Under the pieces are notes generated by a model that did no database searches, had not been told where the DNA came from, and saw nothing but the letters and a program-made list of their open reading frames with translations. A stretch of 64,000 bases of DNA from contig CP021424.1 in assembly GCA_002162095.1 (NCBI GenBank), positions 1,240,001 through 1,304,000 of the forward strand. The letters are read 5' to 3'. The position numbers and the translations under genes are program-made. Positions 58,911 through 64,000 of this stretch are shown here, piece by piece; within the stretch, counting starts at the first letter, position 1; each line of letters opens with the position of its first letter. The DNA comes from Armatimonadetes bacterium Uphvl-Ar2. GTDB lineage: Bacteria; Armatimonadota; Fimbriimonadia; Fimbriimonadales; Fimbriimonadaceae.

Positions 58911-59654
58911 GTGACCCAGGAGCATTTGATCCTCTCTCCCGAGAAGACCCTGCTCTCCTTCCGGCTGGCTCCCATTACCCGCCGGATGTGGGCTCAATTG
59001 CTGGACCTGATGATCCTGACCGGGATCAGCAGTTTGGCGACCACTTTGTCGCTCCTCTTCTTCTCGGCGCTGCCGGAGTTTGCTTTTGCGTTCAGCTCGT
59101 TCGTGACTGCGTTCGCCTTTTTCGGCTACTTCGCCATTAGTGAAGCCAAATTCCAGGGGCAAACCCTGGGCAAGAAGGCACTGAATGTGCGGGTCATCAG
59201 CGTCGATGGAACGCCCATTACGGTACGCCAAGCGTGGCTGAGGAACCTGCTCCGTATTGCCGACCTCTTGCCCGGCGCCTATGTTGTCGGTGTTACGAGC
59301 ATCCTGGCCAACCCGCGCGCCCAGCGCCTGGGAGACATGGTGGCCGGCACGATGGTGGTGGTGGAACCCAAGGTGAGCACTAACTTTGCCGCCGCTCCGC
59401 ACCGCTACGGCATGCACCACTTTGAGCAGTACCTGGCCGAACTGCCAAACATGACCCTGGAGGAGTACATCGCGATGAAGCGGCTGTGCGACCGGTTCCC
59501 TTATCTTCCAGCCGAGGAGCAAGCGCGGTCCATCCAAGACCTGTGGGTGCCCTTTGCCGAGCGGCACCAGGTGCCCGCTTTTGCCAATGTCCATCCCATC
59601 CTGATGATGGAAGCCGTGGTGATGCGCTTCTCGCGCATTCATCACCTGGTGTAA
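58911..59654 (+). CDS. RDD-family membrane protein
   Basis: The 247-residue protein has an RDD domain (about 15-150): FRLAPITRRMWAQLLDLMIL (the R...D pair), two or three hydrophobic helices, QGQTLGKKALNVRVIS, and RNLLRIADLLPG. The C-terminal 100 residues (RYGMHHFEQYLAELPNMTLE onward) form a helical domain often seen in RDD proteins linked with DUF58/MoxR systems. RDD proteins are thought to act in transport or Na+/H+ exchange; the role here is unknown. The start is GTG, divergent from DUF58 by 30 bp. Confidence 0.85.
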   Translation: MTQEHLILSPEKTLLSFRLAPITRRMWAQLLDLMILTGISSLATTLSLLFFSALPEFAFAFSSFVTAFAFFGYFAISEAKFQGQTLGKKALNVRVISVDGTPITVRQAWLRNLLRIADLLPGAYVVGVTSILANPRAQRLGDMVAGTMVVVEPKVSTNFAAAPHRYGMHHFEQYLAELPNMTLEEYIAMKRLCDRFPYLPAEEQARSIQDLWVPFAERHQVPAFANVHPILMMEAVVMRFSRIHHLV

Positions 59655-59666
59655 GCCGTGGTGCAG

Positions 59667-59851
59667 TTTTCCACCACTCGGGCGGGAAAAGCCTGGGGAC
59701 GTGAGTTGTCCCCGCTTATCCCCAGGATGTCCCCGGCTGGGTTGGTCGCGGATTGGGTTCAAAAGACGGGTTGTCCCCGCAATCCAAAGCTTAATAAGCA
59801 ACAAGAGATTCTCTCTTCTCTTTCTTTGAAACCAGAGAGGGGGCCGGGGGA
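59667..59851. other. oriC: Candidate replication origin: DnaA-box-like 9-mers before recF
   Basis: Repeated 9-mers close to TTATCCACA occur in under 120 bp: TTTTCCACC (59667), CGTCCCCAG (minus strand, 59694-59702), TTGTCCCCG (59706), TTATCCCCA (59716), ATGTCCCCG (59727) and TTGTCCCCG (59771). An AT-richer stretch with AAGCTTAATAAGCAACAAGAG and pyrimidine tracts follows (59781-59833). The neighbouring recF and dciA support a replication context. dnaA and dnaN are not in the window, so this could also be a DnaA-regulated promoter or DnaA-titrating site. Confidence 0.45.
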
Positions 59852-60949
59852 ATGACCGGTTACTTGGAACGGTTGGTGCTCCGTAATCTCAGACGATTGA
59901 CGGAGGCAGAAATTAGCCCGGCGCAGGGTCTGACATTGATTGTTGGGCGGAACGGCCAGGGCAAGACGACGGTTCTGGAAGGGATTCACTTGCTCTCGAC
60001 CGGACGCCTGCTGCGGGCGGGGACGGAGAACGACGCCATCCAACTCGGCCAAGACGGGGCGCGGGTGGAGGGCACCCTTACCGGGGGCACAGAATTGGCA
60101 GTGACTTTGCGGCGAGGGTCGCGGAAGATGGCGTATCTGAACGGGCTGGGCCAACGCCGAGCCAGTGACCTGATTGGCCGGATGCCGGTGGTGGCGTTTT
60201 CGGCGCAGGATTTGAGCCTGGTGACCGGGGAGCCGGCCGACCGACGGATGTATCTGGACCTGGAGATCTCGCAAGTGTCTCCGGCCTACCTGCGTGACCT
60301 GACGGTGTACAAGAAGAACCTGAAGGAGCGCAACGCCCTGCTGCGCCAAGAGGAGTGGGTGAGCGACGACCTGCTAGCGACTTACGAAGAGGCCATGGCC
60401 GAAGCGGGGGCGGGCCTGCGGCAGGCGCGGGCGCAATGGGTGACAGAGCTGGCTCCCTTGGCGCGGGACGCTTACGCTACGCTAGCCCCCGGCGAAACCT
60501 TGCATGTGGAGTATCTGCCCCACGAGGAGTGGATGGACGCGGAAGGGGCGCGGGAAGACTACGCCGTAAACCGCCGCCGCGACCGGGAACGCCGGATGAG
60601 CATCCGGGGGCCGCACCGGGATGACATGGCGATTGAGGTGGCGGGCGTGGACGGGCGCAAATACGGGAGCCAGGGCCAGCAGCGCACCGCCGTGATTGCC
60701 GTGAAAATGGCCACCCGGGCCCTGATGGCCGCGAGGCGGGGTGAGTGGCCCCTGCTGCTGCTGGACGACGTCTTTAGCGATCTGGACGCCCAACGCAGGG
60801 CATGCCTGGCGGAATGGGCTTCGCAGCCGGGCGGCCAAGTGATCCTGACGGGCACGGAGCCGGAACTGGCGGGGTCGGCGTTGATTTCGGCGCAGGCGCT
60901 CTACTGGGTAGATTCGGGGGTGGTCACACGCGATGAAATCCGTGGATGA
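59852..60949 (+). CDS. recF: RecF recombination mediator ATPase
   Basis: The 365-residue SMC-like ATPase has Walker A (IVGRNGQGKTTVLEGIHLLS), the ABC signature YGSQGQQRTAVIAVKMA and Walker B LLLLDDVFSDLD. It loads RecA at gaps with RecO and RecR. A GGGGG stretch precedes the ATG. dciA overlaps its 3' end by 17 nt; recF-dciA is a common order next to dnaA-dnaN and gyrB in other bacteria, but those genes are not visible here. Confidence 0.95.
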   Translation: MTGYLERLVLRNLRRLTEAEISPAQGLTLIVGRNGQGKTTVLEGIHLLSTGRLLRAGTENDAIQLGQDGARVEGTLTGGTELAVTLRRGSRKMAYLNGLGQRRASDLIGRMPVVAFSAQDLSLVTGEPADRRMYLDLEISQVSPAYLRDLTVYKKNLKERNALLRQEEWVSDDLLATYEEAMAEAGAGLRQARAQWVTELAPLARDAYATLAPGETLHVEYLPHEEWMDAEGAREDYAVNRRRDRERRMSIRGPHRDDMAIEVAGVDGRKYGSQGQQRTAVIAVKMATRALMAARRGEWPLLLLDDVFSDLDAQRRACLAEWASQPGGQVILTGTEPELAGSALISAQALYWVDSGVVTRDEIRG

Positions 60950-61250
60950 ACTGCTGATGGCGGCCCTGCGCCGACCCCGCATTGTGCAGAAGGTGAAGGC
61001 CCTGGCCGCCGCCCGGCACTGGGGCGAAGCCGTGGGCGAACCCCTGGCCGGCATGGCGGAAGTGTGTGACTTTGACGACGGGGTGCTGTGGCTGAGCTGC
61101 CAAGAACCAGCGGCGGCGGCGGAATTGAGGCTGCGGGCGCCGGAGATTCTGCGCTTTTTAAACGCTCGATTTGACGTCGCGGTGTTTACCGAGTTGCGGA
61201 CGACCACCCGTGCCCCGCGCCGCCCGGACCCCGGGCAAAGCTTAAGATGA
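60933..61250 (+). CDS. dciA: DciA-like (DUF721) helicase loader
   Basis: The 105-residue protein matches DUF721: VDELLMAALRRPRIVQKVKA at the N-terminus, then HWGEAVGEPLAGMAEVCDFD and the KH-like LWLSCQEPAAAAELRLRAPE. DciA assists loading of the DnaB helicase in bacteria lacking DnaC/DnaI. It overlaps recF (17 nt) and comEC (ATGA). Confidence 0.88.
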   Translation: MKSVDELLMAALRRPRIVQKVKALAAARHWGEAVGEPLAGMAEVCDFDDGVLWLSCQEPAAAAELRLRAPEILRFLNARFDVAVFTELRTTTRAPRRPDPGQSLR

Positions 61251-62551
61251 CTAGGGAGCGCATGGTCAACGAACTGGCGATGCGCCCCCTGGTGGTGGCT
61301 TTTGCCGCGGCCCTAGCTGTGGCGTGGTCGGGCGAAGTCTGGGCGTCCTTGCTGTTGTTGGTGCCCTTGGTGGCCCTGGCGGTGATGCAGCGCGGCTGGC
61401 TGTGGGTGTGGGTGGTGGCGGGCTGCCTGTGGGGTGGCGTGGGCCGGGTGGAGTTTGAGAAGGCACCCTTTTTTGAGCCTTCCGTGGTGGTGCGAGAAGG
61501 GGTGGTGCAGGGGGCGGGCGACCCCTTGACCTTGGTGACTGCTGAGGGTACCTATCGGTTAGGTCGCGGTACGAATATGTGGCCGGGCTCGGTGGTGCGG
61601 GTGGAGGGACGTCTCTCTCCCTTGGCCGAAGGGTTCGATGGATCATCGGGGGAAATCGGTCGCCTTTCGGTGAAATCTTGGACGGAAGTACGGCCTTCGC
61701 CATCGTGGCGGGCGGGGCCAGAAGTGGTGCGCCGACGCTTTGCGGCGTGGGCGGAGAAGGCCTTGCACCCCAGCACGCAAGGCTTGGTGCGGGCACTTTG
61801 CTTTAACGAAACGACGGCTTTATCGCCCGCGGATGCGCAGGCGTTGCGCAAGAGTGGCACCTACCACGTGGTCAGTGCCAGCGGCATGCACATCATGTTT
61901 TTGGCGGCGGGGATGATGCTGCTCTTCCGCCGTTTGCCCGTGCCCTACGGGGTGCGAATGCTGCTGATTGGCGTGGTTTTGGTGGCCTTTGCGGTGGCGG
62001 TGGGGGGCCGCCCTTCCATCATTCGGGCGTTGCTGATGGCGGCGGTGTGGGCAAGCGCGTTTCCGTTGCGGCAGCAGTTTGATGGCCCTTCGGCTTGGGC
62101 GCTCGCCGGGTTTGTGGGGTGGTTTTCGAGCCCGGCTGGGGTGGCCGACCTCGGCTACCAGCTGAGCATGGCCGCCGTCGGGGGCCTGATGCTGGGAATG
62201 AACGATGAGAACGGCTGGCGGGGGGCGCTGAAGGCGACCTTGCTGGCTTCTTTGGGCACGCTACCGCTGATTGCCTACCACTTTGGCAACCTCCCGCTGT
62301 GGGGGTTGCCCGCCAATTTGCTGGTGTTGCCGGCGGTTTCCGCGACCATGGTGCTCGCTCTGGCGGGGGCGATGGGGCTCCCGGTGGGATTCTTGATTGA
62401 CGGGCTGGCCGCCTATATGCGCACGGTGGTGCACGCGGCGGCGGATGCCCCCGGCGCTCAGATCATGGTGCCTGCGTTCCATCCGGTGTGGATCGGGTTG
62501 CTGTGGCTAGCCTGGCTGACCCTGTGGAGGCCGCGTGAAGTCGAACCTTAG
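61247..62551 (+). CDS. comEC: ComEC-like DNA uptake channel, membrane part
   Basis: The 434-residue protein has N-terminal hydrophobic helices and an OB-like DUF4131 region (about 75-140), then the competence domain with SGTYHVVSASGMHIMFLAAG (the ComEC SGxxH..SG signature) and six to eight further helices. It lacks the C-terminal metallo-beta-lactamase domain, which lies in the next, overlapping frame. ComEC brings single-stranded DNA across the inner membrane during transformation. ATG at 61247 overlaps the dciA stop; ATG at 61262 is an alternative. Confidence 0.9.
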   Translation: MTRERMVNELAMRPLVVAFAAALAVAWSGEVWASLLLLVPLVALAVMQRGWLWVWVVAGCLWGGVGRVEFEKAPFFEPSVVVREGVVQGAGDPLTLVTAEGTYRLGRGTNMWPGSVVRVEGRLSPLAEGFDGSSGEIGRLSVKSWTEVRPSPSWRAGPEVVRRRFAAWAEKALHPSTQGLVRALCFNETTALSPADAQALRKSGTYHVVSASGMHIMFLAAGMMLLFRRLPVPYGVRMLLIGVVLVAFAVAVGGRPSIIRALLMAAVWASAFPLRQQFDGPSAWALAGFVGWFSSPAGVADLGYQLSMAAVGGLMLGMNDENGWRGALKATLLASLGTLPLIAYHFGNLPLWGLPANLLVLPAVSATMVLALAGAMGLPVGFLIDGLAAYMRTVVHAAADAPGAQIMVPAFHPVWIGLLWLAWLTLWRPREVEP

Positions 62552-63330
62552 CCTCCTGTGGGTGCCCTTTGGGGTGACCCTGGCGTGGGTCGCGAACCTT
62601 GGCGTCGAAAGTTCGGCGAAGCCAGAGCGGGTGTCCATGCTGGCGGTGGGGCAAGGCCACGCCACGCTCATCCAGTCTCAGGGGGTGACCGTGCTGGTGG
62701 ACACTGGCCCGCCGCCCTTTGATGAGGCATTGTCGCCCCGCGCGCTGAGTCAAGAACTCCGGCAGAAGGGGGTGACGGTGATTGATTTGATCGTGATTAC
62801 GCACCCCGATGTCGACCACGCGGGGGCGTTGTCCGCGCTGGCGCGCGACTACCCGGTGCGCGAAATTTGGGCGAATGAGACGTTCCGCATGCACCCGGAC
62901 ACCGGCGATTGGGAGAAGGTGGCCCCGGTGCGGTGGCTGGATGGGCAAAGCCAGGTGAAGTGGGGGCGTGGGCCGTGGATTTATACGCTCCGGCCTGGGA
63001 GGGCAGCGACAACGAACGCTCTCTGGCGGTGCGAGCGGAGCGGGACGAGGCGTCCTTTTTGATCACTGGTGACCTCCCGGCGGGGAGTGAACTCCGGCTA
63101 CCGCCGGCTTTTCTGGAGCCTACAAGCATCGTTTTAGCCGGGCACCACGGGGCGAATAGCTCCCTCCACGAGAACTTCTTGCGCCGCACGCAACCGGAGT
63201 GGGTGGTGTTTTCGGCCGGGCGGGGCAATTCGTATGGCCACCCCGCCCCGGGGCCATCGACCGGGCCGAGGCGATCGGCGCGCGCATTTGGCGCACCGAC
63301 CGCGACGGCACCTTTACCGATTCACCCTAG
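62535..63330 (+). pseudogene. ComEC metallo-beta-lactamase domain, two frameshifts
   Basis: The GTG at 62535 opens a frame with a membrane/signal segment and MLAVGQGHATLIQ, LVDTGPP and ITHPDVDHAGALSAL (HxDxDH metal motif). The sequence continues in a second frame from about 62966 (WAVDLYAPAWEGSDNERSLA, FLITGDLPAG, VLAGHHGANSS, SAGRGNSYGHP) and in a third from 63253 (AIDRAEAIGARIWRTDRDGT) to TAG at 63330. Adding one G to the run at 62962-62966 and one to 63250-63253 restores a single protein of about 265 residues. This is either true decay or homopolymer sequencing error. Confidence 0.85.
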
Positions 63331-63333
63331 CCC

Positions 63334-64000
63334 TTAGCTGAAGATGGCCATACGGGCGGCCAGCTTAGCGCGTAGACCCTGGATCTCTTCCACACGCGCG
63401 CGTTCCCGGGCGACCACTTCCGGCTTGGCCCGCTCGGCGAATTGCGGGTTGGCCAGCCGGGCTTCCAGCCGTTCCAGCTCCTCCGCCAACTTGGCGTCTT
63501 CCTTGCTGATGCGCTCCCGTTCCGCCACCGGGTCAATCAGACCCTCGATGGGGAGGTGGGCGTCGGCGTTGCCGCTGGTGGTGGTGAGGAACGCGCCTTC
63601 CGGCCGGCCACGGCGCAATTCGGTGAACCACGCTTGGCTGCGCACAAACTCCTCGCCGCCTTCCAGATCGGCCTCCACATACAGGGCCGGGAGGGTGCGC
63701 ATGGCGGGCAGGCTGGCCTCGGCGCGCAGGGCGCGCACGCTGCGCACCAGGGCAATCCAACGTTCCACCGTGGCTTCGGCCGCCTCATCCACCTTCATGG
63801 CGGAGGCATCCGGCCAGGCCGCTTGCACCAAGAAGTCCTGGCGATTCGCGAACGGCATGCGCTGGGTGAGCTCTTCGGTGATGAACGGCATGAACGGGTG
63901 CAGGAGCTTGAGAAACACCTCAAACACATGTATCAGCACGCCCAGCACCTCGTCCCGTTGGGCGGGGTCGGCCAGGCGCGGCTTGCTGACCTCGATGTAC
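63334..64000 (-). CDS. valS: Valyl-tRNA synthetase, C-terminal part (runs off window)
   Basis: Only the last ~221 residues are present, cut by the right edge. YIEVSKPRL, then VFEVFLKLLHPFMPFITEEL is the anticodon-binding domain of ValRS, and the end ISKEDAKLAEELERLEARLA to EEIQGLRAKLAARM is its C-terminal coiled-coil arm that grips tRNA(Val). The motif FITEELTQRM and the arm separate it from IleRS and LeuRS. It is convergent with the comEC remnant, 3 bp between stops. Confidence 0.94.
   Translation of the reverse strand, partial: YIEVSKPRLADPAQRDEVLGVLIHVFEVFLKLLHPFMPFITEELTQRMPFANRQDFLVQAAWPDASAMKVDEAAEATVERWIALVRSVRALRAEASLPAMRTLPALYVEADLEGGEEFVRSQAWFTELRRGRPEGAFLTTTSGNADAHLPIEGLIDPVAERERISKEDAKLAEELERLEARLANPQFAERAKPEVVARERARVEEIQGLRAKLAARMAIFS

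Follow-up and report, generated by a model that had tools for sequence, protein, structure and literature searches.

The window, by which we mean the whole 64,000-nucleotide stretch that was analysed (bases 1,240,001-1,304,000 of one contig of 2,633,441 bp), contains a 197-bp gap between a gene for an RDD-family membrane protein and the recF-dciA pair (Table 1). The gap holds an array of DnaA-box-like 9-mers, which an earlier note had described as sharing a TCCCC core within about 115 bp. This description was accurate: the cluster has five TCCCC cores, or six boxes when the TTTTCCACC form is included, within 113 bp (59667-59779), and one 9-mer, TTGTCCCCG, indeed occurs in two exact copies. The minus-strand 9-mer at 59692-59700 is degenerate and carries the TCCCC core. 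The boxes are followed, as had been stated, by an AT-richer stretch and then by recF and dciA, both of which were confirmed by Pfam. The AT content of this stretch is 61%, compared with 36% in the window as a whole. The 50-bp segment that starts at 59781, abutting the last box, has the highest AT content (68%) of any in the 64 kb. An AT-rich candidate unwinding element beside the boxes, as is looked for in an oriC, is present in the gap. Elsewhere in the window (62535-63337), the gene that follows comEC (metallo-beta-lactamase-like part) is broken near a G run, giving two frames that overlap. The same gene lies in one frame in a close relative (L074), and the split is either a sequencing error or the mark of a pseudogene.

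Table 1. Features of the recF gap and its flanking genes (positions in the window)
Feature	Position	Strand	Basis or remark
RDD-family membrane protein gene, left flank	58911-59654	+	Pfam RDD, E 4.6e-19
Candidate oriC, the entire gap between the RDD gene and recF	59655-59851		Boxes and AT-rich element, skew switch, nearby parS, conservation
DnaA-box-like TTTTCCACC	59667-59675	+	Matches the box form of relatives, TTTTCCAC
Two degenerate boxes (59682-59690 and 59692-59700)	59682-59700	-	Weak in sequence; inverted boxes there in relatives
DnaA box TTGTCCCCG	59706-59714	+	Altered in the sister genome (G001, locus L045)
DnaA box TTATCCCCA, first member of the upstream pair	59716-59724	+	Retained in L045 and L074
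DnaA box ATGTCCCCG, second member of the upstream pair	59727-59735	+	44 bp ahead of the proximal box
GGTTCAAAA	59756-59764	+	Matches a TTCAAA-type element that many relatives conserve between pair and proximal box
Proximal DnaA box TTGTCCCCG, R1-like	59771-59779	+	Box search and layout in relatives
TTAATAAGCAACAAGAG, candidate unwinding-element motif	59791-59807	+	TTGTT and TTATT on the minus strand; conserved across relatives
AT-rich candidate DUE, 61% AT	59780-59841		Includes the 50-bp segment with the highest AT content in the window
recF	59852-60949	+	Pfam SMC_N/AAA_23
dciA, helicase-loader-type gene	60933-61250	+	Pfam DciA, E 5.2e-15

The 9-mer TTGTCCCCG has 17 copies in the 2,633,441-bp genome, and the two in the array, 65 bp apart, form the only close pair; the next nearest pair is separated by about 21 kb. 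The wider pattern TTRTCCMCR was found 140 times genome-wide, compared with 75 times for the reversed control, and at this density chance would give only 0.001 triples within 74 bp. Boxes with one mismatch, which were counted in the window alone, showed no overall enrichment (47 found, 48.8 expected), so the signal of the array lies in its clustering and not in the total. This chance-level total, and the fact that TCCCC is a likely core at 64% GC, speak for an accidental cluster of GC-rich 9-mers in an intergenic gap. However, such an accident is hardly credible given the expected number of triples, and it is contradicted by conservation at the same place in other genera (see below). The array is a DnaA-box cluster above chance, which is one of the features sought in an oriC.

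The concern raised in the earlier note, that the 9-mers might be equally common around the genome, was answered by the uniqueness of the close pair and by the nature of the one other TTRTCCMCR triple present among the 100 of 140 matches listed. This triple, at C1:242911-242970 (about 4911-4971 of L042), consists of TTATCCCCG, TTATCCCCA and TTATCCACA, and three exact boxes within 60 bp could be taken for the origin itself. However, it sits in a prophage, between capsid-like and portal-like genes (named by reading their translations), and its position fits the corrected skew described below 36.1 log-likelihood units worse than the best one. An origin at this site was rejected for these two reasons and has next to no probability; the cluster is perhaps a phage origin or a DnaA decoy.

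The genes that usually mark an origin are far from the array. The sole DnaA match, which has all three DnaA domains, is at 1,011,896, 287 kb away, and the DnaN match is at 2,530,712, 1.23 Mb away. Adjacency to dnaA, which is common for an oriC but does not define it, is absent here. Skew was sampled in 40 evenly spread stretches and in 17 more around the array. Plain GC skew was mostly negative to the left of the array and positive to the right, and, with a free terminus, it did not separate recF from dnaA (R2 0.369 vs 0.359). Because plain skew was too noisy for this distinction, we adopted third-position skew corrected for coding strand, using GC3 of 673 long ORFs on a 20-kb grid with about 36% of the genome sampled. 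The best origin in this model was 1,300,000, the sole grid point within 2 log-likelihood units, and the array is at 1,299,700; the position of dnaA was 17.8 units worse. By the corrected skew, the array lies at the switch between replication strands. The skew analysis that the earlier note had proposed as a check thus came out in its favor, with no better minimum elsewhere in this genome. The array is at 49% of the contig, and its antipode is close to the contig ends.

Two perfect matches to what we take to be the parS consensus were found at 1,305,983 and 1,306,877, 5.0 and 5.9 kb past the end of recF, and no further site was found in the genome at up to 2 mismatches. A nearby parS is usual for an oriC, without defining it. 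An ABC-transporter gene (C1:1305971-1306978; L021:1971-2978) has the first of these sites at one end and the second near the other.

DnaA doubles as a transcription factor, and the array abuts recF. The boxes might on these grounds be a regulatory or titration site for DnaA that acts on recF-dciA transcription, with the true origin elsewhere, for example at dnaA, and the skews of Fimbriimonas ginsengisoli and of one other relative (G008) do lean to dnaA. In the genome of the window, however, the skew peaks at the array, parS lies by recF, and a single exact box motif, 1.4 kb from the dnaA start and without any cluster, is found near dnaA among the 100 of 140 matches listed. A regulatory site would also have no need for a conserved AT-rich element with motifs of the E. 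coli DUE. We regard the regulatory reading as improbable, and an origin at dnaA was rejected for this genome on account of the skew, the distance of 287 kb and the lack of a listed box cluster there.

Homologues of recF were found in 58 of 61 genomes at E <= 0.001, some of them weak SMC-like matches; at E <= 1e-30, 101 of 113 genomes from the order have one. Wherever dnaA and recF are on one contig (20 of 20 genomes), they are more than 100 kb apart; in G041, dnaN is 47 kb from recF. At no more than 1 mismatch, parS is present in 33 of the 61 genomes and absent in 28. Six of the positive genomes have no strong recF match (G009, G030, G042, G048, G050 and G054), and in six others recF and parS are on different contigs (G023, G031, G034, G035, G036 and G052). 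All 21 genomes with both on one contig have a parS site no more than 20 kb from recF, usually some 5 kb past it. In one family of the order (f2; G037, G041, G043 and others), recF is present and none of the genomes searched has a parS at this threshold. A search with 2 mismatches in 20 further or earlier-negative genomes gave a site in 14 and none in six, matches which are weak since the reversed control also scores in several genomes. In 11 of the 14 the site is within 20 kb of recF and in one it is on another contig (G066), while the only sites in G019 and G093 are more than 1 Mb from recF.

Corrected skew was also computed for relatives. In G019 recF is at the best fit and dnaA is 5.6 units worse, and G011 is compatible with recF (1.1 below the best, with dnaA at 2.4). 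In G008, for which 20 stretches were used, the best fit is at 20-120 kb, and recF (2.216 Mb) is 9.0 units worse and dnaA 2.8. Despite this contrary skew, G008 keeps the composite module described below before recF; either its chromosome has been rearranged, or the 20-stretch sample is misleading, or the origin has moved.

The stretch upstream of recF was compared in 30 loci, made up of 29 of the 30 fetched loci, which extend far enough upstream (L056, whose contig ends 5 bp upstream, was omitted), and F. ginsengisoli. In most relatives, the upstream stretch includes the end of a reading frame that can be aligned. The alignment shows a box, gTTTTCCAC(A), a short spacer and then cctTAAtAa.aA.aAtAag; it also shows an upstream box pair, a TTCAAA-type element in between and inverted boxes on both sides. 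The TTCAAA-type element between the pair and the proximal box is kept in most recF loci. A position weight matrix matched 264 times in the 360 bp upstream of recF, compared with a shuffled mean of 33.8 and with coding controls of 24 (30 recF coding sequences) and 27 (29 upstream coding sequences), the matrix having been trained on the loci that it scored and shifted matches being counted twice, in the controls too.

In the usual layout, a box pair is followed after about 88 bp by the proximal box, and then by a spacer of 12-14 nt and a TAATAA-type element. The second box of the pair and the proximal box are 87-90 bp apart in most loci and 77-78, 55-59 or 44-47 bp apart in others, with 44 bp in the window and L045. 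The nine loci outside the 87-90 bp mode were in phase with 88 bp at 10.5 bp per turn (Rayleigh p about 0.01; 0.0065 without the window) in a test that was exploratory and used a hand-picked list of loci. In three loci (L046, L052 and L066), the common form of a pair plus a proximal box is not clearly seen. A composite pattern, TTTTCCAC-N8-18-TAAYAR, was searched in the 61 genomes and found in 20 of them, at about 27 distinct sites, 11 of which precede recF by no more than about 220 bp (G004, G007, G008, G014, G016, G018, G021, G025, G026, G029 and G044). Having TTGTCCCCG as its box, the genome of the window gives no match to this pattern. The module is conserved in both place and layout among relatives, as would be looked for in an origin.

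Of the literature on origins in Armatimonadetes (Armatimonadota) or Fimbriimonas, only one report was found relevant (PMC4072686), and its proposal, in the part available, is a guess from noisy skew; no located origin for this lineage turned up in the literature searched. The accessible part gives 5,231,762 bp for the genome of F. ginsengisoli Gsoil 348T, with dnaA as the first gene, recF at 1,929 kb, and dnaA, dnaN, recF and gyrB scattered; it describes no clear origin, one reverse box at 5.20 Mb with no box cluster, and 5.13 Mb as the origin suggested by GC skew (PMC4072686). In the sequence that we used (G062; 5,231,762 bases), the DnaA match is at base 415 and recF at 1,928,535-1,929,596. 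Upstream of this recF lies the module of the family, with TTATCCACT followed after 12 bp by TTTTCCACT and after another 88 bp by TTTTCCCCA, and the sole parS-like site of the genome (1 mismatch) is at 1,922,434, 6.1 kb from recF. Corrected skew from 20 stretches was best at dnaA, with 5.13 Mb at -1.6 and recF at -2.1. The published guess thus concerns the same family and the same scattering of dnaA, dnaN, recF and gyrB, and it places the origin at 5.13 Mb in the part seen, whereas the conserved module, like the sole parS-like site, is found at recF, at 1.92-1.93 Mb.

These results argue that the gap at 59655-59851 of the window is very probably the origin from which this Fimbriimonadales bacterium replicates its chromosome. 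The reading proposed in the earlier note, an oriC beside recF with dnaA and dnaN displaced and with a GC-shifted box, was supported, and the neighboring parS sites and the family-wide conservation add to the case beyond what had been claimed. The element seems to be of an ordinary kind in an unexpected place, a view that is well supported by the sequence. We lean, with some reserve, to a wider statement for the family Fimbriimonadaceae and perhaps the whole order: that the ancestral dnaA-oriC-dnaN-recF cluster was broken and the origin kept with recF while dnaA and dnaN left, that the distance between box groups is helix-phased (88 bp, or whole turns shorter at 77-78, 55-59 and 44-47 bp), and that the position published for the origin of the type genome is about 2 Mb off.

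A defined module of 200-300 bp beside recF offers a testable origin for Fimbriimonas-like bacteria and would correct the annotation. It would also be an added case of an oriC that stayed with recF after the departure of dnaA. The natural series of distances between box groups, apparently in whole helical turns, bears on how DnaA complexes face each other, and with an overall skew as weak as in these genomes, it is understandable that such origins get missed.

As to how the origin might open, two known systems were considered. E. coli DnaA is described as binding single-stranded TT[G/A]T(T) (PMC10316083, in the part available), and TT[A/G]TT is present on the strand opposite to the box strand, next to the proximal box of the module. 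Across the 30 loci, AA[CT]AA follows the box 34 times, compared with a mean of 9.6 and a maximum of 21 in 2000 shuffles, and the mirror motif occurs once; in these counts and in those of adenine runs, the window and L045 were anchored at the -136 box and not at the -81 box, so that their AT-rich element is excluded. The basal unwinding system of B. subtilis type is defined, in the accessible part of PMC8287927, as a box, a spacer of no more than 16 bp with a peak at 10-13, and at least three DnaA-trios (3'-NAN-5') running outward from the box on the strand with the distal 5' end, the polarity being as we interpret it. A period-3 NAN run of at least three on the box strand was found in 24 of 30 loci (the longest run averaging 3.97, vs 2.37 in shuffles), the spacing of 12-14 nt is within the trio limit and matches the published peak, and opening by box and trios was the reading that we first favored from the adenine run. 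It was set back when the run proved to have, with respect to the proximal box, the reverse of the published polarity: runs of at least three in the published polarity were seen in only 7 of 30 loci, and the run would have to face a weak inverted box near recF, some 30 bp off. We now consider trio-based opening rather unlikely, and E. coli-like strand capture, combined with an upstream pair that would act across a phased distance, is favored because the adenine run has the opposite polarity in most loci.

In this favored scheme, DnaA made from the gene 287 kb away would bind at 59771 (the proximal box) and at 59716/59727 (the upstream pair). The helix-phased distance between the box groups would let the DnaA molecules meet on one face, and the complex would melt 59780-59841 and capture the TTGTT/TTATT strand, much as at the E. 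coli R1-DUE. Helicase loading would come next, possibly through DciA, which is encoded next door and, judging from that neighborhood, may be the helicase loader. With parS near the origin, new origin copies would be segregated first.

Distal upstream boxes in B. subtilis act with helical phasing on the proximal box beside the unwinding element, according to the accessible part of PMC6669920. Distant, apparently phased upstream boxes and a period-3 adenine run make the recF module resemble B. subtilis incC and its basal unwinding system. However, the B. subtilis origin stays by dnaA, and the adenine run of the recF module has the opposite polarity to the proximal box. E. coli oriC differs in its flanking genes, mnmG and mioC compared with the RDD gene and recF in the window, and in its boxes, which are GC-shifted in the genus of the window (TTGTCCCCG). 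On the other hand, the two origins have in common a box pointing at an AT-rich element and a location away from dnaA. The E. coli R1-DUE reads TTATCCACA, 14 nt and TAATAAG, the window reads TTGTCCCCG, 12 nt and TAATAAG, and the opposite strand carries TTGT and TTATT in E. coli and, in the same order, TTGTT and TTATT in the window.
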